DNA from: Roseobacter sp. SK209-2-6
GTDB lineage: Bacteria; Pseudomonadota; Alphaproteobacteria; Rhodobacterales; Rhodobacteraceae
Assembly: GCF_000169455.1 (NCBI RefSeq)
Contig: NZ_AAYC01000011.1
Location: forward strand, 62,001-126,000
DNA: 64,000 nucleotides
Reading direction: 5' to 3'
The notes under the pieces were generated by a model. It ran no database searches and had not been told where the DNA came from. It worked only from the letters and a program-made list of their open reading frames with translations. The position numbers were made by a program, and so were the translations under genes. Shown here in pieces: positions 27,977 through 46,087 of this stretch. Within the stretch, counting starts at the first letter, position 1. Every line of letters starts with the position of its first letter.

Positions 27977-29347
27977 TTACAGGCTATCCACGAGTTCCTC
28001 AATGGCCTTGCGATACTGCTTGAGGATGCTGTCACGGGCGATGTGGCTTCCATCGCGTACCATGTGGCGGCCTCCGGACCAAAGATCTGTCACTACATGG
28101 TCCTTGGCAGCAAAGACCAACCCGTCCAGGATCTGTTCTGGCTGCAAGGCACAGAGGGCAGGGTCCTGGCTGTCGATGGCCACCAGATCAGCCAGCTGGC
28201 CGGTTTCGATCCGGCCTGATTTGCGTCCCAGCGCCTGCGCCCCTCCAGCAGCCGCGCCGCAATAGAGCGTCTGACCGACGGAGCCTTCGCTGCCGGGCAC
28301 CAGCACATTGCGCGACAGGTCCCGCAGTCGCTGCGAATACTCCAGGGTGCGCAGCTCTTCGGTCAGCGAGATAAGCACATTGGAATCCGATCCAACCCCA
28401 AAAGCGCCGCCCGCCTGCAGATAGGTGGCCCCGTTGAAAGGCCCGTCGCCGAGATTGGCCTCGGTCACCGGGCAAAGCCCCGCTACTGCGCCGCTGGCGG
28501 CCATATTGCGGGTTTCTTCATCGGTCATATGGGTGGCGTGGATTAGGCACCAGTGGGCATCAACCGGTGCGTTCTCGAGTAGCCATTCGACGGGTCGCGC
28601 GCTCATTCCTTCGAGGACTTCCTGAACTTCCTTCGGCTGTTCGGCGATATGGATGTGGACCGGGCCCTCCCCATGGGCCTGCAGAACGTCCTCCAGGTCA
28701 CGCGGCGAGGTTGCTCGCAGCGAATGCGGCGCAATGCCGACCCGGCAATCTGCGGGCAGCTGACCGGCGGCATGGGCCTTAGCCTGATCCACCAGCCTGC
28801 AGAAGCGGCTCATGTCATTGCCAAAACGCGCCTGGCCGCTTTCCAGGGGTTTTTCGCCCACTCCAGCATAGCTGTAGAGCACCGGCAGATGGGTCAGGCC
28901 GATGCCGGTCTCAAGCGCGGCCGCCATGATCCGGTCCGAGTGCTCCGCCAGGTTATCATAGGCGCTGCCATCTTTCTGGTGGTGCAGATAGTGGAACTCC
29001 CCAACCGAGGCATAACCCGCTTCCTGCATCTCGAGATAGACTAGGGCGGCTATGGCCTCGATCTGCTCTGGCGACAGCTGTGCGGTAAAACGATACATCA
29101 GATCGCGCCAGGTCCAGAAACTGTCCCGCCCCGCCATGCGGTATTCAGTCATGCCGGCCATGGCGCGCTGGAAGGCATGGCTGTGCAGGTTAGCGAGCGC
29201 TGGCAGCAGGGTGTCGACCTGAGTGTCGCCGGGCTGGGCCATGCCATCTGCAGCCAGCGTTGAAATATGGCCGCATTCAATCTCAAGCCGTAGATTTTCT
29301 GCCCATCCGCCGGGCAGCAGGGCGCGTTTTGCAAAAAGTGCCGTCAT
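27977..29347 (-). CDS. hutF: Formimidoylglutamate deiminase HutF
   Basis: About 456 residues, an amidohydrolase that converts N-formimino-L-glutamate to N-formyl-L-glutamate and ammonia (step 4 of the five-step histidine route). Metal-binding LPALANLHSHAFQRA (about 50-62) and GIAPHSLRA with the catalytic His are visible, with LCPVTEANLGDG near 300. I use the second of two adjacent ATGs (29347), spaced 6 bases from GAGG. It is divergent from hutIHGUC. Pairing it with hutG makes formate the one-carbon product. Confidence 0.93.
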   Translation of the reverse strand: MTALFAKRALLPGGWAENLRLEIECGHISTLAADGMAQPGDTQVDTLLPALANLHSHAFQRAMAGMTEYRMAGRDSFWTWRDLMYRFTAQLSPEQIEAIAALVYLEMQEAGYASVGEFHYLHHQKDGSAYDNLAEHSDRIMAAALETGIGLTHLPVLYSYAGVGEKPLESGQARFGNDMSRFCRLVDQAKAHAAGQLPADCRVGIAPHSLRATSPRDLEDVLQAHGEGPVHIHIAEQPKEVQEVLEGMSARPVEWLLENAPVDAHWCLIHATHMTDEETRNMAASGAVAGLCPVTEANLGDGPFNGATYLQAGGAFGVGSDSNVLISLTEELRTLEYSQRLRDLSRNVLVPGSEGSVGQTLYCGAAAGGAQALGRKSGRIETGQLADLVAIDSQDPALCALQPEQILDGLVFAAKDHVVTDLWSGGRHMVRDGSHIARDSILKQYRKAIEELVDSL

Positions 29348-29361
29348 CATCCACCTCGATT

Positions 29362-29376
29362 TTATGTATAGACATA
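29362..29376. promoter_or_regulatory. Candidate HutC operator between hutF and hutI
   Basis: TTATGTATAGACATA is an imperfect palindrome sharing the pattern TTATG..TAG.CATA with the sequence at 34792-34806 ahead of hutC. It also contains TGTATAGACA, one base from the TGTATAYACA type described for HutC in other proteobacteria. It lies where one repressor dimer could control both directions. Confidence 0.6.
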
Positions 29377-29430
29377 TGCCATATTGATTTGTACTAGAAA
29401 AGAGAAGATTTGCACATCGAAGAGGATCAG

Positions 29431-30642
29431 ATGCAGGCGGAAAACCAGGTTTTCACCGACTTGAGTGCGGCCACCATGGCAGATGGGGCTGCGGCCTATG
29501 GGCTGATCAATGCGGCTGCCATTGCGGTATCGGAGGGGAAGATCGCCTGGGTGGGCGCGGAACAGGACCTGCCCGCAGACTACGCTGCGTGGACCCGGCA
29601 CTCGCTGGGCGGCCGGCTGGTCACCCCGGCGCTGATCGATTGCCACACCCATGTGGTGCATGGCGGCCATCGGGCGGTGGAGTTCGAGATGCGCCTCAAC
29701 GGCGCCTCTTATGAAGAGGTCGCCCGCGCCGGCGGCGGCATCATTTCCACGGTCAAGGCAACGCGGGCCGCCTCAGTTGAAGATCTCATCGCCCAGGCCC
29801 TGCCGCGCGTCGATGCGATGCTGGCCGAGGGGGTCTCGCTGATCGAGGTGAAATCTGGCTACGGGCTAGACCGGAAGACCGAGCTCAACATGCTGCGCGC
29901 CGCCCGTGCGCTGGAAGAGCACCGCCCCATCCGGGTGGTGACCAGTTTTCTGGGCGCCCATGCGGTGCCAGTGGAATATAAGGACCGGCCCGAGGCCTAT
30001 ATCGCCGATCTCTGCATTCCGGTGCTGAAAGAGGCCCATGCTGAAGGTCTGGTGGATGCTGTGGATGCTTTCTGCGAAGGCATCGCCTTCTTGCCGGACC
30101 AGCTTGTGCCGCTCTTTGATGCCGCGCGCGACCTGGGCCTGCCGGTGAAACTGCATGCAGAGCAGTTGTCGAACCTGGGCGGGGCCAAGCTGGCCACCAG
30201 CTATGGCGCGCTTTCGGCGGATCACATCGAATACCTGGATCAAGCGGGCGTCGCGGCCATGGCCGGGGCCGGTACCGTGGCGGTGATCCTGCCCGGCGCC
30301 TTTTATACCCTGCGCGAAACCCAGGCGCCGCCGATTGATCTGTTGCGCGAGGCCGGCGTGCCGATGGCGCTGGCCACAGACAGCAATCCCGGCTCGGCGC
30401 CGATGACCTCGCTCTTGCTCACCATGAACATGGGCTGCACCCTGTTCCGCATGACTCCCGAAGAGGCTCTGCGTGGGGTCACCGCCCATGCGGCCCAGGC
30501 TCTGGGCCTGAAGGACTGCGGCCGAATTGCCGCCGGCCAGCGCGCTGACCTGGCTGTCTGGAACGCGGAACACCCGGCAGAGCTCGCCTACCGTATCGGT
30601 TTCAACCCGCTTCATGCCCGTATCTTTGGAGGCAAACTGTGA
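29431..30642 (+). CDS. hutI: Imidazolonepropionase HutI
   Basis: About 403 residues, an amidohydrolase opening 4-imidazolone-5-propionate to N-formimino-L-glutamate. Motifs: [10 protein letters not shown] (metal His pair), [26 protein letters not shown] and [11 protein letters not shown] use the ATG at 29431 because AGAGGA stands 6 bases before it; a TTG at 29410 is the alternative. Its stop overlaps the hutH GTG by four bases. Confidence 0.95.
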
Positions 30643-32192
30643 CCACGCAATCCGTGACCACCCTGACCCTGACCCCCGGCGCCGTTTCCCTGGCCGATCT
30701 TGAGCGTGTCTTCCGCGAGGAATGCGCGGTGCGGCTGGATACCGCTTGCCGCCCGGCGATTGAGGCCGCGCAAGCGCGCATCGCAGCTGCGGCAGCGGGT
30801 GAGGCCGCTGTCTATGGCGTCAACACCGGCTTTGGCAAATTGGCCAGCGTAAAGATCGCAGCCGAGGATACCGCTACCCTGCAGCGCAACCTGATCCTCA
30901 GCCATTGCTGCGGTGTCGGCCCGGCGATCCCGCGCGCCCATGCCCGGTTGATGATGGCGCTGAAGCTGCTCAGCCTGGGGCGCGGCGCCTCCGGCGTGCG
31001 GCTGGAGCTGATCGACTTGATCGAGGCCATGCTGGAAAAGGGCGTCACCCCGGTGATCCCGGCGCAGGGCTCCGTCGGCGCCTCGGGCGATCTGGCGCCG
31101 TTGTCGCATATGGCGGCGGTGATGATGGGGGCCGGAGAGGCAGAATTCGGCGGCGCGGTCATGACCGGCGGCGAAGCCCTGGCAAAGGCCGGACTTGAGC
31201 CGGTGGTTTTGGGCCCCAAGGAGGGCCTGGCGCTGATCAATGGCACGCAGTTTTCGACCGCCTTTGCCCTGGCAGGCCTCTTCGGGGCCTGGCAGGCGGC
31301 ACAAAGCGCCCTGGTCACCTCGGCCCTGACCACTGACGCCATCATGGGCTCCACCGCGCCTTTGCAGCCGGAGATCCATAGCTTGCGGGGCCATCGTGGT
31401 CAGATTGAGGCCGGATCGACCATGCGCGCGCTTTTGGCTGGTTCTGTAATTCGCGAAAGCCACCGCGAAGATGACACCCGGGTGCAGGACCCTTACTGCA
31501 TCCGCTGCCAGCCACAGGTGGTGGGTGCTGCGATGGACGTCCTGCGCCAAGCCGCTACGACGCTGGAGATCGAGGCCAATGCCGCCACCGACAATCCGCT
31601 GGTCCTGTCAGAGGCCGGGCTGATTGTCTCCGGAGGTAACTTCCATGCTGAGCCGGTGGGATTCGCTGCCGATATGATCGCCCTGGCTGTGGCAGAGATC
31701 GGCGCCATCGCGCAGCGCCGCATCGCGCTGATCGTCGATCCGGTGCTCAGCCATGATCTGCCGCCCTTCCTGACGCCGAACCCGGGCCTGAACTCCGGCT
31801 ATATGATTGCCGAGGTTACTACCGCCGCCCTGATGAGCGAGAACAAGCATCTCGCCAATCCTTGCGTCACGGACTCTACCCCGACCTCGGCCAACCAAGA
31901 GGACCATGTCTCGATGGCTGCCCATGGCGCGCGGCGCCTGGCGCAAATGGTGGAGAACCTGGAGCGCATCCTCGGCGTGGAGCTGCTCTGCGCCACGCAA
32001 GGGGTTGAGTTCCGCGCGCCGCTGCCCACCAGTGAGACTCTGCAGGGTGTCATGGCGCGCCTGCGCGCAGTGGTGCCGCCGCTTGGGGATGATCGTTATA
32101 CCGCCCCGGATATCGAGGCAGCCTCTACTCTCATCGCCAGCGGTGACATCGCCAGCGGCACAGGCATCGGCATGCCGGAGCTGGGCGCATGA
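30639..32192 (+). CDS. hutH: Histidine ammonia-lyase HutH
   Basis: A 517-residue enzyme that removes ammonia from L-histidine to give urocanate. Ala148-Ser149-Gly150 in [13 protein letters not shown] cyclise to the MIO cofactor. [10 protein letters not shown] (59-68) supplies the active-site Tyr, and [12 protein letters not shown] and [12 protein letters not shown] are family marks. GTG start overlapping hutI; four-base overlap with hutG. Confidence 0.97.
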
Positions 32193-32992
32193 TCGACCCC
32201 GTTGAAATCACGCGCGGCGACAGCCCCGTGGTGCTGGGCTTGCCCCATACCGGGACCTATGTGCCCGAGGAGGTCCTGGCCAGGTTGAATGCGCGGGGCA
32301 GGGGGCTGGATGACACCGATTGGCATATCCACCAGCTTTACGATGGGCTTTTGCCTGGTGCCACCACAGTGCGCGCCACTTTCCACCGCTATGTTATTGA
32401 CGCCAACCGGGATCCTTCCGGTGTCTCGCTTTATCCCGGGCAGAACACCACCACCCTGGTGCCGCTCACGGATTTTGAAGGGCGTGACATCTGGGATGTG
32501 CCGCCGACAGAGTCGGATATCGAAGCCCGCCGCGCGGCGTTCCACGCACCCTATCACGCGGCGCTGGAGGCAGAGCTGCAGCGGGTGAATGCCAAGCACG
32601 GCTTTGCCATTCTTTACGACTGCCACTCGATCCGGGGGCAAATCCCCTTTCTGTTTGAGGGCGTGCTGCCGGATTTCAACACCGGCACCAATATGGGCGC
32701 GACCTGCGATCCTTTGATCGAAGAGCTGGTAGTCTCGCGCTGCGCCAGTGCCGAGGGCTATACATCGGTGCTGAATGGCCGCTTCAAGGGCGGCTGGACC
32801 ACCCGCCATTACGGGCGCCCCGCCGAGGGGCTGCATGCGATCCAGATGGAACTGGCGCAAAGCACCTATCTGACCTTAGAGGCCGCCCCCTGGACCTATG
32901 ACAGCGCCAAGGCAGTCCGCCTGCGCGCCCATCTCAAAGACATTCTTGAAAGCCTGGCCGCCTGGGCCCCGCAAACCGGAGGAAACTCATGA
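32189..32992 (+). CDS. hutG: N-formylglutamate deformylase HutG
   Basis: A 267-residue zinc amidohydrolase, product L-glutamate plus formate. [10 protein letters not shown] (residues 16-25) and YDCHSIRG around 145 supply the metal ligands, and [13 protein letters not shown] is characteristic of the HutG deformylase. It overlaps hutH and hutU by four bases each. With HutF it makes the formylglutamate branch of the pathway. Confidence 0.95.
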
Positions 32993-34671
32993 CCGATCCC
33001 CGCAAGAACACCCGTGACATCTTCCCGCCCACCGGACCCGAGCTCAACGCCAAGAGCTGGATGACCGAAGCGCCCTTGCGGATGCTGATGAACAACCTGC
33101 ATCCCGATGTGGCGGAAAACCCGCATGAGCTGGTGGTTTACGGCGGCATCGGCCGGGCGGCACGGACCTGGAAAGACTTTGACCTTATGGTCGAGAGCCT
33201 TAAGGATCTGGAAGAGGACGAGACCCTCCTAGTGCAGTCTGGCAAGCCGGTCGCCATCGTCAAGACCCACGCGGACGCACCCCGTGTGCTGATCGCCAAC
33301 TCCAACCTGGTGCCCCATTGGGCCAATTGGGACCACTTCAACGAGCTCGATAAAAAGGGCCTGATGATGTACGGCCAGATGACGGCCGGCTCCTGGATCT
33401 ACATCGGTACCCAGGGCATCGTACAGGGCACCTATGAGACCTTTGCCGAGGCGGGCCGCCAGCATTATGGCGGTGCCCTCACCGGCAAATGGATTCTGAC
33501 TGGCGGCCTGGGCGGCATGGGCGGCGCCCAGCCTCTGGCGGCAGTCTTTGCCGGCGCTTGCTGCTTGGCGGTGGAGTGCAACCCCGACAGCATCGATTTC
33601 CGGCTGCGGACAAAATACCTGGACGAAAAGGCGGAGAGCCTGGACGAAGCGCTGGAGATGATCGAGCGCTGGACCGCAGCCGGTGAGGCCAAATCTGTCG
33701 GCCTCTTGGGCAATGCGGCCGAGATCTTTCCCGAGATCCTGCGCCGCGCCGAAGCGGGCGGTGCGCGCCCCGATATCGTCACTGACCAGACCTCTGCCCA
33801 TGATCCGGTAAATGGCTACTTGCCGCTGGGCTGGACCATGGGCGAGTGGAAAGAGCGCCGCGAGAGCGACCCCAAGGGCGTCGACAAGGCCGCGCGCGCC
33901 TCCATGAAAGTGCAGGTTGATGCCATGTGCAAATTCCATGCCATGGGCATTCCTACCGTGGATTACGGTAACAATATCCGCCAGATGGCGCTGGAAGAAG
34001 GGCTGGAGAACGCCTTTGACTTCCCCGGTTTTGTGCCGGCCTATATCCGTCCGCTGTTCTGCCGCGGCATTGGCCCCTTCCGTTGGGCGGCCCTGTCGGG
34101 CGATCCGGAGGATATCGCAAAGACCGACGCCAAGATGAAGGAACTCTTCCCCGAGAACACCCATCTGCACAACTGGCTGGACATGGCGCGGGAGCGCATT
34201 GCTTTTCAGGGCCTGCCCGCGCGGATCTGTTGGATTGGCCTGGGCGATCGTCACAAGGCGGGACTAGCCTTCAACGAGATGGTCAGGAACGGCGAGCTGA
34301 AAGCGCCGGTTGTCATTGGCCGCGACCACCTGGATTCAGGTTCCGTGGCCTCTCCCAACCGTGAGACCGAGGCAATGATGGACGGCTCTGACGCCGTTTC
34401 CGACTGGCCTTTGCTGAATGCGCTGACCAATACCGCCTCGGGCGCTACCTGGGTGTCGCTGCACCATGGCGGCGGCGTTGGTATGGGCTTCTCGCAGCAC
34501 TCCGGCGTGGTGATTTGCGCCGATGGCACGGATGCGGCGGCCAAGCGGCTGGAGCGGGTGCTGTGGAACGACCCGGCGTCTGGCGTCTGGCGTCATGCGG
34601 ATGCGGGCTATGAGATCGCCAAGGACTGCGCCCGCGAACATGGACTGCGCCTGCCGGGGATCCTGGGCTGA
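32989..34671 (+). CDS. hutU: Urocanate hydratase HutU
   Basis: A 560-residue enzyme using tightly bound NAD+ as electrophile to convert urocanate to 4-imidazolone-5-propionate. Motifs: [57 protein letters not shown] and the conserved Cys in [10 protein letters not shown]. Length matches the family. Last enzyme gene of the row; an intergenic hairpin repeat separates it from hutC. Confidence 0.97.
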
Positions 34672-34706
34672 ATAGAAACGGCTTGAAGTCTGAAACTGCA
34701 ACGAGT

Positions 34707-34769
34707 TTTGGAGAAAATGAGGGCCGTGGCTGATTTTGGGAAGGTGCAAAGCGCCTTCCCGCGTTTGCC
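34707..34769 (+). repeat. Dispersed intergenic repeat A, copy 2
   Basis: Aligns along its length with 2920-2981. The hairpin arms GGGAAGGTGC (34738-34747) and GCGCCTTCCC (34751-34760) are identical to those of copy 1; the loop is AAA instead of ATA. Placed between hutU and hutC, it may lower read-through into hutC. Confidence 0.7.
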
Positions 34770-34791
34770 TATACATTCAGACAAAATATTG

Positions 34792-34806
34792 TTATGCGTA
34801 GTCATA
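34792..34806. promoter_or_regulatory. Candidate HutC operator ahead of hutC
   Basis: GTTATG, CGTAGT, CATAAC (34791-34808) is a perfect 6-bp palindrome 20 bp before the hutC start. It shares TTATG..TAG.CATA with the hutF/hutI spacer, so HutC probably also represses itself. Confidence 0.6.
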
Positions 34807-34828
34807 ACAGCTGAATGGACCCGACGCG

Positions 34829-35518
34829 ATGAAAGCCACTTTCCGGGATGTCAAAGCCGACATCATGCGTAAGATTTCTGCCGGGGAATGGGCGCCGGGC
34901 GCTCTGATTCCCAATGAGATGGACCTGGCCGAAAGCTATGGTTGCGCCCGCGCCACGGTGAACCGGGCCATGCGGGAGCTGGCGGATGAGGGCGTCATTG
35001 AACGCCGCCGCAAAGCGGGCACCCGCGTGCGCATAGCGCCGGTGCGGCAGGCACGTTTCGCGATCCCGGTGGTGCGCGACGAGATTGAAGAGCAGAACGG
35101 TGAATACCGCTATGCCCTGATCAGCCGCAGCAAGGACGCGGCGCCCGGCTGGCTGCGCGCCCGGTTGCAGCTGCCCGAAGGCACCCCGGTTCTGCATCTC
35201 ACCTGCATGCATTACGCCGACGGCAACCCCTATCAATATGAGGACCGCTGGATCAATCTGGCATTGCTGCCACAGGCGGAAGCGGCGGATTTTGCCACGC
35301 TTGGCCCCAATGAGTGGCTGGTGGCAACTGTGCCCTTCTCCGATGCGGAGATCAGCTTTTCCGCCGCCAGCGCCGATGAGACCCTAGCGGATTGCCTGAG
35401 CTGCACCCGTGGCGCGGCCCTCTTCACGGTGGAGCGTTCAACCCGTCTGGAAGGGGAGGCGGTCACCTTTGTGCGCCAGTATTTCCGCCCAGGCCACCGA
35501 ATGACCACTCGCTATTGA
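34829..35518 (+). CDS. hutC: Histidine utilisation repressor HutC
   Basis: A 229-residue GntR/UTRA regulator. DNA-binding domain at residues 1-70 (IPNEMDLAESYGCARATVNRAMREL split around the turn) and UTRA ligand domain from about 85 (YQYEDRWINLALLP). In other proteobacteria HutC binds urocanate and releases the hut operators. Its place at the end of hutIHGU, with its own operator, supports the name. Confidence 0.92.
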   Translation: MKATFRDVKADIMRKISAGEWAPGALIPNEMDLAESYGCARATVNRAMRELADEGVIERRRKAGTRVRIAPVRQARFAIPVVRDEIEEQNGEYRYALISRSKDAAPGWLRARLQLPEGTPVLHLTCMHYADGNPYQYEDRWINLALLPQAEAADFATLGPNEWLVATVPFSDAEISFSAASADETLADCLSCTRGAALFTVERSTRLEGEAVTFVRQYFRPGHRMTTRY

Positions 35519-36189: not shown

Positions 36190-37751
36190 TGACATCCGCG
36201 CTTCCAAAGACTGGTTCCCTGGGGACTGATGCAACGGAACGGCGCATTCAGCAGATCTCCAGCTGGATTTTGGTCCCGCTTCCGGCCCTGGCCGCCTATT
36301 TCTTGAACGATGGTGCGGGATGGTGGTTGTTTGCAACCCTTGGACTGACCTTGGGGGCCTTGGCATTCCTTTCGCAAAAACTGGCGGATTCAACCCGGGA
36401 CTATCTGCTGAGTTTCTGTTTCATCGGACACTGCATTTTGTTCACCGCTTCCCTGAGCGGGCACGCCTGGCAGCTGGATGCGCATATGCTCTTCTTTGCA
36501 GCGCTGGCCATCGTATCAACTCTGGCCAATGCCAATGCGCTGCTCTTTGCAACGGTTCTTGTGGCGCTGCATCATATCTCCTTTAGCTTCCTGTTGCCGA
36601 CCCTGGTCTATCCAAGCGGTGGATTGGCTGAAAACCTGCAGCGTACGGTGTTGCACGCGGGCATTGTCTTGCTGGAATCGGGCGTCTTGCTGATTAGCCT
36701 GCGCAAAAGTGCAGCGGCGGATGCCGCACTAAAGCAACAACAAAAAGCCGCGCAGGAGCAGGCAGAAGCAGCCGCCCGTGCCGAGGCAGAGGCGACACAA
36801 AACAAGAAGGACGCCGAGCGCGTGGTCGGCATCGTTGGGGACCATCTCTGTGATTTGGCAGATGGCCGTTTGGATAGCCGTATTGATGAGGAGTTCCCGG
36901 CAGAATACCGCCTGCTGCAAAAGAACTTCAACGCGACGGTTGATACACTGAAGGAAACGATCGATCAGGTTCTGGATGCAACCCATAGCATCAACAGCGG
37001 GGCAACCGAAATTAGCCAGGCGTCAGAAGATCTGTCCAACCGAACCGAAAGCCAGGCCGCGACTTTGGAACAGACAGCCGCAGCACTGGAGGAACTGACT
37101 GTTTCTGTGAAATCGGCTGCCGAAGGGGCAAAAAGCGTCGAAGCCACCATGGGTGAGGCCAGAGACGAAGCGGTCAACAGTGGGCAGATTGTCAGAGATG
37201 CCGTTTCGGCAATGGGCGAGATCGAAAACTCTGCCACGCAGATTGCGCGCATCATCAGCGTGATCGATGATATTGCCTTTCAGACCAATCTATTGGCCTT
37301 GAATGCCGGGGTGGAAGCTGCCCGCGCCGGTGAGGCAGGCAGAGGCTTTGCCGTGGTCGCGTCCGAGGTACGTGGCCTGGCGCAACGCTCTTCGGATGCA
37401 GCAACCGAGATCAAAACACTGATCCATGAAAGCTCTGAGCATGTTGAGCAGGGGGTCGATCTGGTTGGTAAAGCCGGTGATGCGATTGAGAGCATCGTAG
37501 AACGTGTGAACCAGATCTCTGGACTGGTTTCCAACATCGCCAAAGGTGCCGCTGAGCAATCCATAGGCCTGAGCGAGATCAACACCGGTGTTGGCCAGCT
37601 GGATCACGTGACACAGCAGAATGCGGCCATGGTCGAAGAAGCCAACTCAGCCGGTCACATGCTGCATTCAGATGCTCAGAAGCTTGCGGAACTCGTGGGG
37701 CATTTCTCTTCCGAGAGCTCGGCACATGCAATTTCTGCAGCGGCGGCCTGA
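36177..37751 (+). CDS. Methyl-accepting chemotaxis protein with multi-helix membrane N-terminus
   Basis: About 524 residues. The first 170 contain some six hydrophobic helices with short loops and no periplasmic sensor domain. A charged coiled coil (about 185-220), a HAMP-like segment (about 225-280) and the signalling domain follow, with [23 protein letters not shown] near 360-380. The tip is nearly identical to that of the receptor at 23239. It ends in an Ala-rich tail without the xWxxF tether. The ATG at 36177 lies inside the preceding small gene; an upstream GTG-type start would make the overlap longer. It probably senses membrane state or through the coupled small protein. Confidence 0.88.
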
Positions 37752-37791
37752 ACTACAGGCTTGCCCGGATCGGGATTGATTGCTCTATGCA

Positions 37792-37830
37792 GCGAAGAAA
37801 CGCCAGTCAGGATCCGTTGCGTTTCTTCGC
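37792..37830 (+). terminator. Terminator-like hairpin after the chemoreceptor
   Basis: GCGAAGAAACGC and GCGTTTCTTCGC pair perfectly over 12 bp around a 15-base loop, 40 bp after the stop. The following bases (AGTCAAAAGCGTTTTAGG) give no clean U-run. Confidence 0.6.
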
Positions 37831-38389
37831 AGTCAAAAGCGTTTTAGGTGGATGCGAAACATCCGCTTGGCCTGTCTGACTGGCAATCATTGTGGATGAG
37901 GGGGCTCAAAGCGTATTCAATCATGAATAGCCGCTCTGATAGGGCGCATCATAAACATGGTTGCGCAATGCAGCTCACGAGCCCTTCTACCAACTACCAT
38001 CCAGTGAGTTGTGCTGTAGTTGTGGGCCTGTTGATCTTCTGATCTCAATGGACGTCTGAGAGTGGGGCCAGTCGAGAGTGGGGGTTGAGCAAAAGTGATT
38101 TGCGGGAGGTTTGCCCCCCGCAACACTTTTTAGGAATGCTTTTGCCGCTCACTCCGAGAGCAAAGCGGTCGTCAGTTCGGCTGTGCGTGTTTTTGCGGCG
38201 GCCAAAGAGTGACGGGCCAAAGACTGGGGTTTACGGGGAACGCGATCCAATCCTGCGCCTTGCCGCACCTCAGCTGGAATATGTTTACCCACCATTTTTT
38301 GTGTTCTAGGGCGGTGCCATTGTTTCGGTGCATGGCCAAGAGTGGCTGGCCGCATTGGAAGCCGCAGGCCAACTGGCCGGACAGGCCGG
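37831..38389. other. Non-coding or decayed intergenic region
   Basis: About 560 bp without a gene I can support. A 7-bp inverted repeat CAACTAC/GTAGTTG lies at 37991-38022. Near 38310-38392 a 25-codon stretch (VHGQEWLAALEAAGQL) without a good start ends on the ATGA of the next broken gene; it may be the remnant of an upstream partner. Confidence 0.45.
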
Positions 38390-38958
38390 ATGACTTTGCT
38401 GCGCGATTTGGCAATCGGCATGGGGCTACTGCTGGCGGAAGGCCCCGCCGCGGCCTAGGATCTGCAGGGGCGTGACACGGCAGGAAACTGGCGTGTCACG
38501 CATTATGGGCCCATGGCATTTGGAAGAGTTTCTGTGATGAGCGCGAAGAAGACGGCTCTTTGAGGCAACGATGCTACATTCGTTGGGTTGATGTTTACGC
38601 CCCAGCGCCTCGGTTAGGCGCATTGTTCACCTTTATGACACCGCAAAAGGAGAGGCTTGGCGGGCATGATGTGAAGTTTGGACCCGAGCCAGGGACCGCC
38701 ATTGTTGCTGATGGTCTTCGGATAGATCTGGATAATGGCACCACCTGGCAGATGACAGATCGTCAATGCCTGCTTTGGGCGGACTGCAGCCTGGAAGCAG
38801 AGGCCCCAGCGCAACTCCTTGAGGCAAAGCTTCAGGGCGGAAGTTTTCATTTTGAGTTTGCTGACAGCCGCGGCCGCCACTTCAATTTGCAATGGCCCTT
38901 GGAGGGGTTTGCGGAGGCTTTTGCAACCTATGAGGCCGAATGGCAACGGCGTCAGTGA
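38390..38958 (+). pseudogene. Broken gene for a secreted protein of unknown family
   Basis: From the ATG at 38390 the frame reads a good signal peptide (MTLLRDLAIGMGLLLAEGPAAA), then TAG at 38456-38458 where the usual cleavage context would have Gln (CAG), then DLQGRDTAGNWRVTHYGPM in the same frame. Near 38513-38530 the coding signal jumps frame and goes on as WKSFCDEREEDGSLRQRCYI and a well-formed domain to 38958 (YAPAPRLGALFTFM, DGLRIDLDNGTTWQM). A nonsense change plus a frameshift explain both breaks. The 3' portion alone has an open frame but no credible start. Confidence 0.65.
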
Positions 38959-39040
38959 CAAATCTACTTTCTATTGTTCCTCAACAAGCAAAAGCCGTCC
39001 CGCTATGGGGGTGGCTGTACTCGTGACCGTGTGAGGTGCG

Positions 39041-39364
39041 TTATTCGCTGTGGAAAATCGCATCTCCCTTGCCGTCTTGAAAGATGAAGAGAACACAGTC
39101 TTCCACACTTATACAAGCGTCGCCATGGAAGGCGTAGGTATTGGCATGATCCGGTACGGCAAATCCGTCTGGCATTTTGAGGTACATAGCACAGGGCCAA
39201 CTGTCACGGTCGCCCCAAAGATTGGACAGCGACATCGGAGTGCCTTCGATCGGGGTCCATTGGATGTCGTCGAATTTGGTCATCAGGCCGGTGTCTGCAA
39301 CAGCGGCAGTGGCCGCGGCGAAGGAAACTGCGGCGGCGGCCACAAGTTTGAAAATACCCTTGAT
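39041..39364 (-). pseudogene. Broken cupin-like secreted protein gene
   Basis: Reading leftward, AAAGGAG stands 5 bases before ATC (39364-39362) where ATG would be expected. What follows (KGIFKLVAAAAVSFAAATAAVA) is an ideal signal peptide, so the start codon appears to be lost. The mature part begins like DUF4437-type cupins (FDDIQWTPIEGTPMSLSNLW, PDGFAVPDHANTY) and then goes straight to HGDACISVEDCVLFIFQ. The roughly 30-40 residues that normally complete the metal-binding barrel are missing, in frame. An ATG at 39445 stays in frame but would add an implausible leader. Divergent from a broken LysR gene. Confidence 0.6.
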
Positions 39365-39498
39365 TTGAGCTCCTTTAGCAATGACGGCCAGCGACGGAGT
39401 GCCGTTGACGGGCCGGGCGAAGTTGATGGGATTGAACCTAAGCAAATGGCAGAGGAGCTAAATATGCAGCGCTGCAACCAACTGTTTCGGAGTTGCCG

Positions 39499-40339
39499 AT
39501 GAAACTGACGAGCGATGATCTGATGGTGGTGTTGGCTCTGTGTTGCGAGGGGACACTTGAACGGGCCGGGTTGTTTCCGGATCGGGATGTCTCATCAGTA
39601 TTTCGGGCCATCAAACGGATCGAGACAAAGGTCGGAGCACCGCTTTTCTCCCGCTCAAAGACCGGATTCGAGCCCTTTCCCGCAGCCGCAGAACTGGCTG
39701 AACGGGGGCGTGAAATCAGTGAATCCCTGTCTCATGCGGATCGGATCTGTTCTGGTCTGGAAGAGCAGCTGACCGGGCGGTTACGCATCACGACAACGGA
39801 CGTTCTTTTGGAGCACTTTATCCTGCCGAACTTGGCACAGTTCAGGCGCGAGGTGCCGCAGATCGAAATTGAATTCAGCACCAGCAACCAGTTTGCGAAA
39901 CTCTGGGAACGTGGCTTTGATCTGGCTGTGCGCCCCTCGTCCAACCCGCCAGGTCAACTGCTTGGACAGTTCCTGACCCGGTTGGGATTTGTTGCGGTCG
40001 GTGGGCCAGGCTATATGGCGGCAGATCGGGGATCTGGATTGGCTGATCCCGGGTAGCGGGCTGGCACAGCACCCTATCCGCAGGTGGTTTGCCAGAAACG
40101 CTGTCCCCAGCGCCTCCGTTACCAGTCTTGATTTCATGAACCTCATGATCAAAGCGGTCCGGGAGGATCTGGGTGTTTCTTTGCTGCCGGATCTTCCTGC
40201 CCTGACCGAGGGGTTGCACAAAATCGAGGGGCTGGAGGTCACAGAGACCTCTGAAATCTGGTGCCTTTATCATTCCAGCAACCGTGGGAATCCTCTGATT
40301 CAGGCCTTTGTCAAATTCATGAAACGCGCCATGGCTTGA
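39499..40339 (+). pseudogene. Frameshifted LysR-family regulator
   Basis: From ATG 39499 the product has a LysR helix-turn-helix (about 8-60) and the first part of the substrate-binding domain (LRITTTDVLLEHFILPNLAQ), as far as VGGPGYMA. It then runs into another frame and stops at 40056. The continuation is in a second frame from about 40022 (GDLDWLIPGSGLAQHPIRRWF, DLGVSLLPDLPALTEG) to the stop at 40339. The two parts add to about 278 residues, some 20 short, so a small deletion caused the frameshift. It is divergent from the broken cupin gene, its likely former target. Confidence 0.75.
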
Positions 40340-40388: not shown

Positions 40389-40757
40389 TCAGGCCTGTTT
40401 TTGCGTCTGGGTCATCGCGTCAAAATTCTCGATGACCCAGTTGTCGAGGGTGCCGATTACCTGAGCCAGAGACAGCCCAAGCGGGGACAGGCGGTAGTCC
40501 ACCCGAGGCGGGACTTCGCCATAGTCCTGGCGGATCACCAGATTGTACTCCTCCAGCCTTTTTAGGGTCTGAGTTAGCATTTTCTGCGAGATTCCCTCAA
40601 TCGCACGCATCAATTCGGCGTTGCGCATCGGCCCCTCCAGCAAGAGGGGGATGACCAGTAAAGACCACTTATCCCCGATCACAGCGATGATCTGGCGCGA
40701 CGGGCAGAGAGCGATATAGGGGTCAGGCTTGATATCAAGCATATGTGAAAATCCCAT
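40389..40757 (-). CDS. HxlR-family transcriptional regulator
   Basis: About 122 residues, a MarR-like winged helix (about 15-105) with the HxlR pattern CPSRQIIAVIGDKWSLLVIPLLLEGP cut by the first helix, ISQKMLTQTLKRLE and RVDYRLSPLGLSL. HxlR proteins often sense reactive electrophiles or redox state, sometimes through the N-terminal Cys (CPSR, present here). The start is uncertain: ATG 40757, ATG 40742 or TTG 40766; none has a strong ribosome site. Divergent from the metallo-hydrolase, its likely target. Confidence 0.85.
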   Translation of the reverse strand: MGFSHMLDIKPDPYIALCPSRQIIAVIGDKWSLLVIPLLLEGPMRNAELMRAIEGISQKMLTQTLKRLEEYNLVIRQDYGEVPPRVDYRLSPLGLSLAQVIGTLDNWVIENFDAMTQTQKQA

Positions 40758-40898: not shown

Positions 40899-41864
40899 AT
40901 GACATCACTGACACGCAGACAGGTTTTTGGAACCGCCGCCGCTGCCGCTGCTGCAACCACTTTGTCAGGTGCGGCTTCGGCCAAGGCGCCACGCGCAACC
41001 GGTCAGGCACCGGGATTTTATCGTCGCAAGGTGGGGGAGGCCCAGGTCACGGCCCTGCTAGACGGCTATATTGATGTTGCCCATGGGTTCTGGACCGGGA
41101 TTGAGCAAGCCACCGTTGAAGAGTTGGCAGCCGCCGCCGGCCTTCCCGACAATGGCTCTATTAGGATTGGTGTAACCTCTTATCTGATCAATCAGGGCGA
41201 TCGCCTGGTTCTGGTCGATACTGGCTCGGCGGATCTGTTTGGCCCGACCGCGGGAAAATTCCTTTCTGCGCTGGCAGCGGCGGGCCATACACCGGATCAG
41301 GTGGATGACATTCTGATCACCCACATGCACCCGGACCATATCGGGGCCCTGCTGGAAAACGGCGCCGCAGTTTTCCCGAATGCACAGATCCACGTCGCCA
41401 GACTGGAGTTCGACCATTGGACATCGACAACCGCTCAGTCCAATGCGCCTGATTTCGCCAGACCCTGGTTTGATGCGGCGCTCGGCGTAAAGGCGGCCTA
41501 TGACGGACGCCTCAATGTCTTCTCTGGCGCTCCCGAAGTGCTCCCAGGGCTTACGGCGGTGCCACTTCATGGGCATACCCCCGGCCATAGCGGCTATCGC
41601 CTGTCGTCCCGTGGTGAAGATCTGTTGATCTGGGGGGATGCCTGCGGCATCGCATCAGTGCAGTTCGAGCACCCCGAAGCGGGTCTGGCCTTTGACGTTG
41701 ATGGGGCCACTGGAAAGGCAACACGTGCCAAGCTGTTGGATATGGCCGCTGGTGAGGGTGTTCTGGTTGCATCGGCGCACCTGCCGTTTCCCAGTTTTGG
41801 CCGTGTGTTGCGCGCCGGGGAGGCATATGCCTGGCAGCCCGGCGAATACCGTTTTGAGGTCTGA
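40899..41864 (+). CDS. Exported metallo-beta-lactamase-fold hydrolase
   Basis: About 321 residues. A twin-arginine-type signal (MTSLTRRQVFG, Ala-rich core) points to the periplasm. Zinc ligands: HMHPDH (THMHPDHIGAL), a His in HGHTPGHSGY and an Asp in WGDACG. Lactonases, sulfatases and glyoxalase-like enzymes share this fold; the substrate cannot be told. I use ATG 40899, 7 bases after AAGGAG, rather than long upstream extensions. Its neighbour HxlR gene probably controls it. Confidence 0.87.
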   Translation: MTSLTRRQVFGTAAAAAAATTLSGAASAKAPRATGQAPGFYRRKVGEAQVTALLDGYIDVAHGFWTGIEQATVEELAAAAGLPDNGSIRIGVTSYLINQGDRLVLVDTGSADLFGPTAGKFLSALAAAGHTPDQVDDILITHMHPDHIGALLENGAAVFPNAQIHVARLEFDHWTSTTAQSNAPDFARPWFDAALGVKAAYDGRLNVFSGAPEVLPGLTAVPLHGHTPGHSGYRLSSRGEDLLIWGDACGIASVQFEHPEAGLAFDVDGATGKATRAKLLDMAAGEGVLVASAHLPFPSFGRVLRAGEAYAWQPGEYRFEV

Positions 41865-41944: not shown

Positions 41945-42871
41945 ATGATGAGCAGCATCCCGAGACGTGGCCTGTGTCAAGGCCAATGGCATGCGGATCT
42001 AAACACTATGCCGGACCGCAACAGCGACTTTCAGCAGAGTTTTAAAACGCCAGCGGCCCGGGTTGAGATCGACATTGATCGTTTGCGCCAGCGGCCAGAG
42101 AGCTATCAACTCTATGCCGCCAAGGCCTGTCCCTTTGCCCATCGTGTGCTGATGATGCTGGCCCTTTTGCCGGACGCTAAAATCGGCGTGACCCATTGTG
42201 CTCCTTGGTTGGGGCACCCGCAGGGTTGGACATTTGAGGCCGGAGCGACCTCACCCATAGGAGGTCAATATCTCTGGCAGGTCTACACTGCATCTGACCC
42301 AGCCTATTCCGGGCGAGTAACTGTGCCTGTGCTATGGGATTGTGACGCTCAGGCCATCGCTTCAGCGGAGTCGCTGGACATCATTCAAGCGCTGGCGATA
42401 GCGTTTGGCCCACATCTTATTCCCAATGAGACGGGTTTTGCAGAACTATGCGATTGGATCCACGATGCTCTGAATGTGGGGGTCTACAAGGTTGGATTTG
42501 CCACCACTCAGCAAGACTATGATGCTGCCATTGCGGCACTTGAGGATACGCTGCAGCAGGTCAGCACGCTGGTCTGCGATGGCTATGCCTATGGTGATAG
42601 CCCGACATTAGCCGATCTCATGATTTTTGCCACAGGCATAAGGTTTGACGTGGCCTATCAAGGTGCGTTCCAAATCCAGCATCGGCGTTGGAGCGATGAC
42701 TCCAGCCTGAGTGCCCATTTGAAACGTGTTGCTCAGCTGGAAGGCATTGCAGAAACCGTGGCAGTTGACGACTATCGCAGGCACTACTTTGATGAGATTG
42801 GTTTTCCAATCCGCCACACGATGGATGACGGGCACTACATTATACCCTTTACCCCAGATCCGTTCGCGTGA
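41945..42871 (+). CDS. Xi-class glutathione S-transferase (glutathionyl-hydroquinone reductase type)
   Basis: 308 residues. The Xi-class catalytic motif CPxAHR is present as CPFAHR with Cys62; most members have CPWAHR. FEAGATSPIGGQYLWQVYTASDP matches the substrate loop of the family (kept in two parts around Gly), and ADLMIFATGIRFD lies in the C-terminal helical domain. Members reduce S-glutathionyl-hydroquinones with glutathione. Start at the first ATG (41945) after GAGG; a later ATG at 42008 is possible. Transcribed alone toward the Lrp gene. Confidence 0.82.
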   Translation: MMSSIPRRGLCQGQWHADLNTMPDRNSDFQQSFKTPAARVEIDIDRLRQRPESYQLYAAKACPFAHRVLMMLALLPDAKIGVTHCAPWLGHPQGWTFEAGATSPIGGQYLWQVYTASDPAYSGRVTVPVLWDCDAQAIASAESLDIIQALAIAFGPHLIPNETGFAELCDWIHDALNVGVYKVGFATTQQDYDAAIAALEDTLQQVSTLVCDGYAYGDSPTLADLMIFATGIRFDVAYQGAFQIQHRRWSDDSSLSAHLKRVAQLEGIAETVAVDDYRRHYFDEIGFPIRHTMDDGHYIIPFTPDPFA

Positions 42872-42939: not shown

Positions 42940-43395
42940 CTATAACATTGGGAAAACACTGGTCTTTTTCACGACCCCGTAGACGAAACTGCTATCAATT
43001 GATCCGACCCCACCGATCGAGTGCAGCTTGTTGCGGATGAAATCCTCATAGGCACCCAGCCCGGATACCATGACCTTCAGGAAATAGTCCGTTCCGCCGG
43101 TCAGCATGAAGCACTCGAGCACCTCGTCGAATAAAGCAATTTTCCGCTCAAAGTGTTGAACCGCATCACCGTTGTGATGCTCCAGTCGGACATTCACAAA
43201 CGCAACAATGGGCAAACCATAGGCAACCGGATCAACATCCGCGCTATAGCTTTTTATGGCTCCCGTGGTCTCCAAATTACGCAAGCGTCTTAAGCAAGGA
43301 GAGGGCGAGAGGCCGACCTTCTCGGCCAAATCTTGATTCGTGATACGCCCTTCCGATTGCAGGGTTCTCAATATTTGGCGGTCAATCTGATCCAT
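42940..43395 (-). CDS. mdeR: Lrp/AsnC-family regulator of the methionine-degradation cluster
   Basis: A 151-residue regulator: helix-turn-helix (LAEKVGLSPSPCLRRLRNLE) and a RAM domain (FMLTGGTDYFLKVMV). The GAGGAG site 6 bases upstream supports the ATG at 43395. It is divergent from methionine gamma-lyase. In P. putida the Lrp-like MdeR beside mdeA and mdeB activates them in response to methionine; the same arrangement here is the basis for the name. Confidence 0.85.
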   Translation of the reverse strand: MDQIDRQILRTLQSEGRITNQDLAEKVGLSPSPCLRRLRNLETTGAIKSYSADVDPVAYGLPIVAFVNVRLEHHNGDAVQHFERKIALFDEVLECFMLTGGTDYFLKVMVSGLGAYEDFIRNKLHSIGGVGSIDSSFVYGVVKKTSVFPML

Positions 43396-43509
43396 CCTTT
43401 GCTCCTCGTTGGCATAATCTGCCATTTTTCATATCAACTTGAGCATAGTTCGCAATAAAATTTCCCTCAGCCTGTGCGCAAATTTCGTTGTCCACATGAG
43501 GAGCAACAA

Positions 43510-44709
43510 ATGACCACTTCACAGGGTTTCGCCACGCGAGCAATCCATCACGGGTATGATCCACAGGAAAACGAGGGCGCTTTGACGCCGCCGATCCACA
43601 TGACATCAACCTTTGCCTTTGAAAGCGCTGAAGCTGGCGGGGCGATGTTTGCAGGTGAAGCATCCGGTCATTTTTATTCACGGATTTCCAACCCAACGCT
43701 TGATCTGTTGGAACAACGCATGGCGACCCTGGAAGGCGCCGAAGCTGGGCTGGGCACGGCTTCTGGTATGGGGGCAATCACCTCAACCCTCTGGTCTCTG
43801 GTCCGCGCGGGCGATGAGGTGATCATCGACAAGACGCTCTATGGCTGCACATTTGCCTTCTTGACCCATGGTCTTACCCGGTTTGATGTTTCGGTGCGTC
43901 CGGTGGACATGACGGACCCATCCAACCTGGAAGAGGTTATCAGTGATCGCACACGTGTGGTCTATTTCGAGACACCGGCGAACCCAAACAACCGGCTGGT
44001 GGATATCGCTGCGATTTCGAAAATTGCGCATCGAGCGGGGGCCAAAGTCGTTGTTGATAACACCTATGCAACCCCGGTGCAGACCCGCCCGATCGAGCAT
44101 GGCGCGGATATCGTCGTGCATTCTGCAACCAAATATCTGGGTGGCCACGGCGATTTGATTGCCGGGATTGTGGTAGGCTCCGCGGAAGACATCACCAATA
44201 TTCGTCTGGTCGGATTGAAAGACATGACTGGCGCGGTGATGGCGCCGATGACCGCAATGCTGGTTATGCGCGGCCTCAAGACCCTGCAGCTAAGGGTTGA
44301 GCGGCACTGCAAATCTGCATTGGAAGTTGCCCAGGCGTTGGAGGCACACCCGGCGGTGGCCAAGGTCTATTATCCTGGGCTAGCGAGCTTCGAACAGGGT
44401 GATCTGGCGCGGCGTCAGATGGCCAATTTCGGTGGCATGATCCCATTTGAAGTTGTCGGCGGCAAAGAGGGCGGCATTGCCTTTATGAACAGGCTGTCCA
44501 TGATCCAGCGGGCTGTCAGCCTGGGGGACGCGGAAAGCCTGATCCAGCATCCCGCCTCCATGACACATTCGACCTATACCCCGGAAGAACGCGCGAAACA
44601 CGGTATCGGCGAAGGTCTGCTACGGCTCTCCGTCGGTCTGGAGGACGTCGATGACATCCTGAGCGATCTGATGCGCGCTTTGGGACAGCATAACAGCGCA
44701 GCCGCCTAA
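43510..44709 (+). CDS. megL: Methionine gamma-lyase
   Basis: A 399-residue PLP enzyme of the gamma family splitting L-methionine to methanethiol, 2-oxobutyrate and ammonia. PLP lysine: Lys208 in HSATKYLGGH. Tyr111 and Cys113 in LYGCTFAF are the residues that separate methionine gamma-lyase from cystathionine lyases, which usually lack this Cys. YSRISNPT binds the phosphate of the neighbouring subunit. The ATG at 43510 follows GAGGAG. First gene of a run that continues to the E3 gene at 52371. Confidence 0.9.
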   Translation: MTTSQGFATRAIHHGYDPQENEGALTPPIHMTSTFAFESAEAGGAMFAGEASGHFYSRISNPTLDLLEQRMATLEGAEAGLGTASGMGAITSTLWSLVRAGDEVIIDKTLYGCTFAFLTHGLTRFDVSVRPVDMTDPSNLEEVISDRTRVVYFETPANPNNRLVDIAAISKIAHRAGAKVVVDNTYATPVQTRPIEHGADIVVHSATKYLGGHGDLIAGIVVGSAEDITNIRLVGLKDMTGAVMAPMTAMLVMRGLKTLQLRVERHCKSALEVAQALEAHPAVAKVYYPGLASFEQGDLARRQMANFGGMIPFEVVGGKEGGIAFMNRLSMIQRAVSLGDAESLIQHPASMTHSTYTPEERAKHGIGEGLLRLSVGLEDVDDILSDLMRALGQHNSAAA

Positions 44710-44737
44710 GGCTTCCCAAACCGGATTGGAGAGCAAG

Positions 44738-46087
44738 ATGACAACTACAGAAATTAGAGGCGACCATTCCAGCAAGGCGCCAAACAGAACTCAGGACAGC
44801 TGGCTGGACACTCTTGAGCGCAAACGTCAGGCCGGCCCATTCATGGGGGCTGATCATGTCAACTCCTTGGGTTTGTCAACATGCGCAGTTCATGCCGGGA
44901 CCCATGATGACCCGCGTACGGGCGCCGTTGGCACCCCGATCTATCAAACATCAACCTTTGTGCTGAACGACGATCAGTATGAATCGGTCGAAGGTGGTTT
45001 TGCCCGTGATCGCTTTATCTACAGTCGCTATGGAAACCCTTCCCAATGGGCCGTCCAAGAGAAGCTGGCTGCACTGGAAGGTGCTGAATCTGCGATTGTC
45101 TTCAGCTCTGGCATGGCGGCCATCACCGCCGGCGTCCTGGCGATGGTTGACAAGGGGGCACATGTGGTCGCGGCGAGCGACCTTTATGGGGGCACCTACA
45201 ATCTGTTCAATCAAGAGTTTCCATCCTTTGGGATGTCAGCGACGCTGGTGGATTCCTATGATCTGGACGCCATCGAAGAAGCAATTCAGCCCAACACTCA
45301 GGCATTGTATTTCGAAGCAATAACCAACCCGGTTTTGAAGGTTGTGAACATCCCGGCCTTGGTTGAGATCGCAAAACGTCACAATCTTCGCCTGATTGTT
45401 GATAGCACCTTTGCGCCGCCACCTGTGATGCGCCCGCTGGAGTTGGGGGTCGACTTGGTCATCCATTCTGCCTCCAAATATCTGAATGGGCATTCTGATT
45501 TGATCGCAGGCGTCGTGGCCGGCCCACGTAAGCTGGTTGATACGGTCTGGCCCAGGCTCCTGAACTTTGGCGGGTCACTAGATCCACATGCCTGTTTCTT
45601 GCTGGAACGCGGATTGAAAACCCTACCAATCCGCATGCGCGCCCATGAAGAAAGCGCCACGGCCCTGGCCAAGTTCCTGGAAAGCCACCCGATGGTGGAA
45701 AAGGTGCTCTATCCCATGTTGCCAAGCCATCCCGATCATGCCCTGGCCAAAAGCTTGATGAAGATGGGAACGGGCAATGTGACCTTCTTTGTCAAAGGCG
45801 GCGACATGGCGGCGCTGGCTTTGCTGGACCACCTGAACCTCCCAAAACAGGCCACTAGTCTGGGTGGAGTCGAAAGCCTGATTAGCCTGCCTTTCAATTC
45901 TTCTCAGGCAACCATGACCTCCAAGCAACGGGCTGAAATCGGGATTGATCCCGGCTGCGTCCGCTTATCTGTTGGCATCGAAGATGCCGCTGATCTTATT
46001 CAAGATTTTGACCAGGCTTTGAAGCGGATCTCAAGGGAGATCCCCACTCAACCTGCTGAAAATAAGGAAATATCCCATGCGAAATAG
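44738..46087 (+). CDS. Second gamma-family PLP lyase (cystathionine gamma-lyase/synthase-like)
   Basis: A 449-residue enzyme, about 50 residues longer than usual because of an N-terminal extension before LGLSTCAVHAGTHDDP. PLP lysine in HSASKYLNGHSD, YSRYGNPSQ for phosphate binding. The active-site loop reads DLYGGTYNLF: Gly replaces the Cys of methionine gamma-lyase, so substrate preference probably differs (cystathionine, homocysteine, O-acylhomoserine or S-methyl derivatives). It starts 28 bp after megL with GGAGAG, and its end overlaps the OsmC gene by 11 bp. Confidence 0.87.
   Translation: MTTTEIRGDHSSKAPNRTQDSWLDTLERKRQAGPFMGADHVNSLGLSTCAVHAGTHDDPRTGAVGTPIYQTSTFVLNDDQYESVEGGFARDRFIYSRYGNPSQWAVQEKLAALEGAESAIVFSSGMAAITAGVLAMVDKGAHVVAASDLYGGTYNLFNQEFPSFGMSATLVDSYDLDAIEEAIQPNTQALYFEAITNPVLKVVNIPALVEIAKRHNLRLIVDSTFAPPPVMRPLELGVDLVIHSASKYLNGHSDLIAGVVAGPRKLVDTVWPRLLNFGGSLDPHACFLLERGLKTLPIRMRAHEESATALAKFLESHPMVEKVLYPMLPSHPDHALAKSLMKMGTGNVTFFVKGGDMAALALLDHLNLPKQATSLGGVESLISLPFNSSQATMTSKQRAEIGIDPGCVRLSVGIEDAADLIQDFDQALKRISREIPTQPAENKEISHAK

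Follow-up and report, generated by a model that had tools for sequence, protein, structure and literature searches.

Four adjacent decayed genes in Roseobacter sp. SK209-2-6 as the probable 3' end of a degraded accessory cluster

Results and Discussion

Overview of the locus

The window analyzed here, a stretch of 64,000 bases within a 172,500-base contig of Roseobacter sp. SK209-2-6, contains at bp 38226-40339 the remains of four adjacent genes, which encode in order a thioredoxin-like protein (+ strand), an IalB-like protein (+), a DUF4437 cupin (-) and a LysR-family regulator (+). The locus very probably represents the decaying 3' end of a roseobacter accessory cluster, in which a large loss may have been followed by small lesions. 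No intact gene was recognized between the intact chemotaxis gene that ends at bp 37751 and the HxlR-family regulator gene at bp 40389-40742 (-). All four genes in this interval are damaged, while neither a frame change nor an internal stop was found when the HxlR, metallo-hydrolase and glutathione S-transferase (GST) genes that follow were compared in an identical manner. Because these three neighbours are clean, the lesions are clustered above what would be expected by chance. A first-pass annotation of this DNA had described three adjacent decayed genes. Sequence comparison with Leisingera indicates that all three are indeed broken, but the count was too low: a fourth, the thioredoxin-like remnant, lies directly upstream.

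Lesions in the four genes

Of the thioredoxin-like gene, only the 3' part remains (bp 38226-38393, +; homologous to L026:6387-6797, L026 being the corresponding locus of Leisingera sp. ANG1). DNA homology begins at bp 38226 of the window, which corresponds to position 6627 of L026, inside the Leisingera gene; at the protein level, the match (tblastn) perhaps starts already at bp 38193. The remnant has an in-frame TAG (bp 38307-38309) and lacks one codon, but is otherwise in a single frame up to its stop at bp 38391-38393. This stop overlaps the IalB-like start as ATGA, an arrangement also found in L026 and L077, while the overlap in L076 is 1 base. A CPPC motif was seen by eye in the thioredoxin-like genes of L026, L014 and L076, in a part of the gene that is absent from the window. 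The L026 protein had no match in Pfam or NCBIfam.

The adjoining IalB-family secreted-protein gene (bp 38390-38958, +) is intact in L026 (6794-7360), L076 (9140-9709) and L077. As previously noted, it contains a TAG at codon 23 (bp 38456-38458, counting from the start at bp 38390) and a later frame change, which we attribute to the loss of 1 base near bp 38502, after which a second frame runs to bp 38958. The assignment to PF06776 is borderline: the second window frame scores 22.9 bits against a cutoff of 22.1, and the intact L026 copy scores 20.3. In a protein search of 12 genomes of the genus, two had a match to IalB (SK209-2-6 itself and G008).

The cupin gene (bp 39041-39376, -, including an AAAGGAG at bp 39370-39376) has coding remains from bp 39041 to approximately bp 39364. 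It is intact in L026 (7445-7861) and L014 (8830-9249) and annotated in L067 and L068. The first-pass annotation had placed its start at an ATC behind AAAGGAG. There is no ATG, GTG or TTG at the expected position, but it is uncertain that the ATC is the former start: the ATG of the Leisingera gene aligns with the codon after it (bp 39359-39361), where there is no usual start either. Upstream, the frame is open as far as a TTG at bp 39443-39445. The claim that the gene lacks the middle of its barrel is borne out, as 99 bases are missing in frame relative to the Leisingera gene. In Leisingera, the sequence ACGCCT is present at both edges of the missing segment, while the window has a single copy (bp 39130-39135). 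In terms of the conserved cupin motifs, the Glu of motif 1 and almost all of motif 2 are lost with this deletion; in addition, the HAH of the relatives is HAN in the window, with the second His replaced. The window frame matches none of the Pfam families up to an E-value of 0.1, while the intact L026 protein matches Cupin_7 (E-value: 4.4e-12) and DUF4437 (E-value: 1.8e-9). Judging from its sequence, the window gene is a remnant of a DUF4437/Cupin_7 gene and probably not a working member of the family. A literature search found no paper under DUF4437.

The LysR-family gene (bp 39499-40339, +) is intact in L026 (8001-8855) and L014 (9390-10253). In the window it is split into two frames, as the first-pass annotation had recognized, with the first (bp 39499-40056) encoding 186 residues up to a stop at bp 40054-40056 and the second extending from approximately bp 40022 to bp 40339. 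The same annotation had estimated that about 20 residues were missing; the actual net loss relative to Leisingera is 14 bases (approximately five residues) near bp 40023, and it is this loss that shifts the frame. LysR length varies among the relatives at this position, and the gene of G211, another genome of the family, is longer. The domain match in the window is split over the two frames and HTH_1 scores 25 bits, below the Pfam cutoff of 26.6 (36.8 in Leisingera); in L026, both HTH_1 and the substrate-binding domain are above cutoff. The window protein also has a cysteine and a proline at sites where both intact relatives share other residues.

The cupin and LysR genes had been described as divergent in the manner of a regulator and its target. 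This arrangement is conserved in relatives, and between the two genes lies a palindrome, TGCAGCGCTGCA (bp 39464-39477), which is a possible LysR operator with the same core in L014 and L067; the sequence shared with these two loci spans bp 39465-39476. Such palindromes are usual for LysR operators. It is kept in the window and has diverged in part in Leisingera L026; its survival fits a recent loss.

The intact cluster in relatives

When the genome collection was scanned with the first LysR frame as query, a single relative was obtained, Leisingera sp. ANG1, with 78% identity over this frame. On its contig_12 (NZ_AFCF02000012.1, L026), the genes are in the same order as in the window (thioredoxin-like, IalB, cupin, LysR, HxlR, MBL, GST) and all seven are open, so that intact versions of the four broken genes do exist in a relative, a comparison that the first-pass annotation had proposed. 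Unlike in the window, importer, GDSL and LysR genes lie upstream of them. The same divergent DUF4437 cupin/LysR pair, intact and with an intergenic palindrome, is found on plasmids of Rhodobacteraceae bacterium M382 (CP081101.1) and Alisedimentitalea scapharcae (NZ_CP123585.1), where it adjoins GDSL, LysR and importer genes; these two loci differ in having no IalB gene beside the cupin and other genes after LysR. In G008, a genome of the same genus, contig C11 (L076) carries intact genes for the importer, two GDSL hydrolases, LysR, a metallo-beta-lactamase-fold (MBL) hydrolase, the thioredoxin-like protein and IalB, but it has no cupin/LysR pair and the MBL gene is inside the cluster. No match to the cupin or the second LysR was found in the 18 kb read of G008 or in the 14 kb of G097; both genomes do have the cluster, including its thioredoxin-like and IalB genes. 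Intact forms are thus available for the cupin/LysR pair in L067 and L068 and for the thioredoxin-like and IalB genes in L076 and L077, and none of the searches made revealed a relative that shares the short forms.

The cluster is sparsely distributed. With the intact Leisingera DNA as query, matches were found in 5 of 394 family genomes, among them SK209-2-6 itself and G008; the match in G230 was short. When the decayed stretch was used against the 12 genomes of the genus, only SK209-2-6 was found, a result limited by sensitivity, as G008 was found later with the intact Leisingera genes. The intact cupin matched only SK209-2-6 among the same 12. A cupin search of 295 family genomes gave eight matches including SK209-2-6, and of the others only G211 was strong. 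LysR matched 11 family genomes including SK209-2-6, with G211 at 61% identity and nine at 28-34%. The weak cupin and LysR matches in other family genomes (28-35% identity) are taken as distant relatives or paralogues. Relatives of the intact cupin are encoded on 10 plasmids among 72,556 records, and those of M382 and A. scapharcae both match at 88.7%.

Upstream of the region retained in the window, the order in L026, L067, L068, L076 and L077 is ABC importer (partial where the stretch ends), GDSL hydrolase, small protein, LysR and second GDSL hydrolase. In L026 (1-6358), L076 (22-9709) and L077, we observed a sparsely distributed cluster of ABC importer, two GDSL, LysR, SnoaL-like, MBL, thioredoxin-like and IalB genes that is without a named function. 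The solute-binding protein of G008 is weakly similar to PotD/PotF (40.6 bits, far below the PotD cutoff of 582). Judging from this composition, uptake and hydrolysis of an ester- or lactone-bearing compound is the most likely role of the cluster.

When the L026 proteins were compared with the window by tblastn, the genes from thioredoxin-like to GST were found, the importer and first LysR had only distant paralogues elsewhere in it (23-46% identity) and the GDSL genes had no match in the window. In the SK209-2-6 genome, 17 of 19 DNA matches to L026:1-9400 lie outside the locus; these are short and all inside the ATPase gene. For remnants of the upstream genes at bp 37700-38190, there were only weak matches (E-value: 0.099 or worse). 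On these matches, the larger part of the cluster has either gone from this genome or never arrived, and loss is the likelier reading because the thioredoxin-like gene breaks off midway.

Intact neighbouring genes

Downstream of the decayed genes, the window retains the HxlR-family gene, the MBL hydrolase gene (bp 40899-41864, +) and a GST-family gene (bp 41945-42871, +); HxlR and GST are the same neighbours as in Leisingera ANG1. The MBL hydrolase, which is retained while its neighbours decay, has as its best NCBIfam match the AidB quorum-quenching lactonase, at 206.5 bits and under the curated cutoff of 360, and is described here as AidB-lactonase-like. Its gene is located beside the cluster in L026 and inside it in L076 and L077 (G008 and G097). 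Elsewhere in the window, bp 27977-35518 contains histidine-utilization (hut) genes, which are also found on the 109,761-base plasmid CP104105.1 of Phaeobacter sp. G2. At bp 42940-46087, a Lrp/AsnC regulator gene and a methionine gamma-lyase-like gene are divergently oriented, and after the latter comes a second PLP-enzyme-like gene (identified by eye); matches to this segment include 15 Leisingera plasmid records.

Timing of the loss

The first-pass annotation had stated that the reading frames are otherwise well preserved and that an accessory function seemed to have been lost recently, and both statements agree with the substitution data and with the existence of intact relatives. Relative to Leisingera (Nei-Gojobori method), dN/dS is 0.087 for the remaining thioredoxin part, 0.063 for the cupin and 0.096 for LysR (a range of 0.063-0.096 for the three broken genes with a computable value); for IalB, dN is 0.211 and dS is saturated. 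The values for the intact genes are 0.061 (HxlR), 0.041 (MBL) and 0.130 (GST). As the broken genes fall within the range of their intact neighbours (0.041-0.130), constraint was held until recently.

Amino acid changes specific to each lineage were also counted. Over the four genes there are 49 changes in the window and 32 in Leisingera, a difference that is not significant (p = 0.075) and so does not prove relaxed constraint. With G008 as outgroup, the counts are 5 versus 2 for the thioredoxin part and 17 versus 10 for IalB; with G211, they are 10 versus 3 for the cupin (p = 0.09) and 17 versus 17 for LysR. The intact MBL gene has 10 versus 11. If the relaxed period is estimated from these counts, it comprises roughly 5% of lineage time (95% range 0-15%), assuming an omega of 0.09 and equal branches. 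The polarization is rough and outgroup-dependent, as the intact relatives lie at some distance (dS 1.4-2.5 or saturated): the thioredoxin part gives 1 versus 3 when G211 is used instead, and with G211 as sole outgroup and without IalB, the sum is 28 versus 23 (p = 0.58), for a relaxed period of approximately 2% (95% range up to 12%, omega 0.09). Codon-position counts by branch for LysR and the cupin (46:65 versus 34:64) showed no significant difference (p = 0.32). A long absence of constraint would be expected to raise the window count several-fold, and a weak signal of relaxation is what is expected if the loss is recent. Within the limits set by such distant relatives, a recent loss is supported. 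The 10 versus 3 changes give a hint that the cupin may have decayed earlier.

Alternative explanations

Loss of accessory operons is a general source of pseudogenes in bacteria. The known cases show the same nonsense mutations, frameshifts, start losses and repeat-bounded deletions, with neighbouring genes hit together, and have no essential difference from the locus described here, which is ordinary pseudogenization, a gene loss caught part-way. Three other explanations were weighed. As the assembly is a draft of 29 contigs, sequencing or assembly errors might make intact genes appear broken, and any single lesion, above all the 1-base loss (a typical error), could be one. It is very unlikely that errors account for the whole, as they would have to produce, within 2.2 kb, two TAG codons, deletions of 99 and 14 bases and the loss of both a 5' part and a start, while leaving the three adjacent genes clean. 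Recoding, in which TAG read-through and programmed frameshifting join the frames, would draw on the fact that both nonsense codons are TAG, but it leaves the missing 5' part, the lost start and the 99-base deletion unexplained, and the same genes in the relatives have no internal TAG or shifts; its probability is vanishingly small.

Some of the short forms might still work, such as a first LysR frame that binds the palindrome or a shortened cupin whose translation begins at an unusual or upstream codon. The retained palindrome, the in-frame cupin deletion with a frame open upstream to a TTG and the well-preserved reading frames would all fit. Against this, the LysR helix-turn-helix falls below its Pfam cutoff, and substitutions occur at sites on which the relatives agree; the cupin is without one of the two His residues of HAH, the Glu that comes next and almost the entire second motif, and it has no Pfam match; and the loss is too recent for frame preservation to carry weight. 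We therefore regard working short forms as very improbable. A more specific version, in which the first LysR frame was kept as a truncated regulator that binds the palindrome and was redirected to the retained MBL and HxlR neighbours, is considered extremely improbable.

Proposed course of the decay

Based on these comparisons, we favour pseudogenization after loss of the cluster. In its intact form, the cluster would encode an ABC importer together with a LysR regulator and two GDSL/SGNH hydrolases, as well as small exported proteins; the thioredoxin-like protein is one of these, and the IalB-like protein is another in some genomes. Some genomes also have an MBL-fold hydrolase in the cluster, and in some there is an exported DUF4437 cupin whose gene is divergent from that of its own LysR. 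The importer, GDSL and first LysR genes were probably lost through a large deletion or rearrangement with one end inside the thioredoxin-like gene. We propose that once the pathway had been lost, the thioredoxin-like, IalB-like, cupin and second LysR genes were no longer under selection, and that these four would then have gathered stops, small deletions, the start loss and the 99-base deletion, the last probably a slippage-type event between the 6-base direct repeats. The MBL and HxlR genes are still under purifying selection and probably serve without the rest. The evidence supports a recently lost accessory function whose regulator and target decayed together, and because much of the cluster is gone, this loss is wider than the first-pass annotation had suggested.

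Although the process of decay is itself ordinary, the locus is a clear snapshot of the loss of a roseobacter accessory cluster, in which some genes are absent outright, some are broken and some are still under selection. It further reveals an importer, GDSL, MBL and cupin gene cluster of sparse distribution, which is intact in the strains named above and plasmid-borne in at least two genomes.
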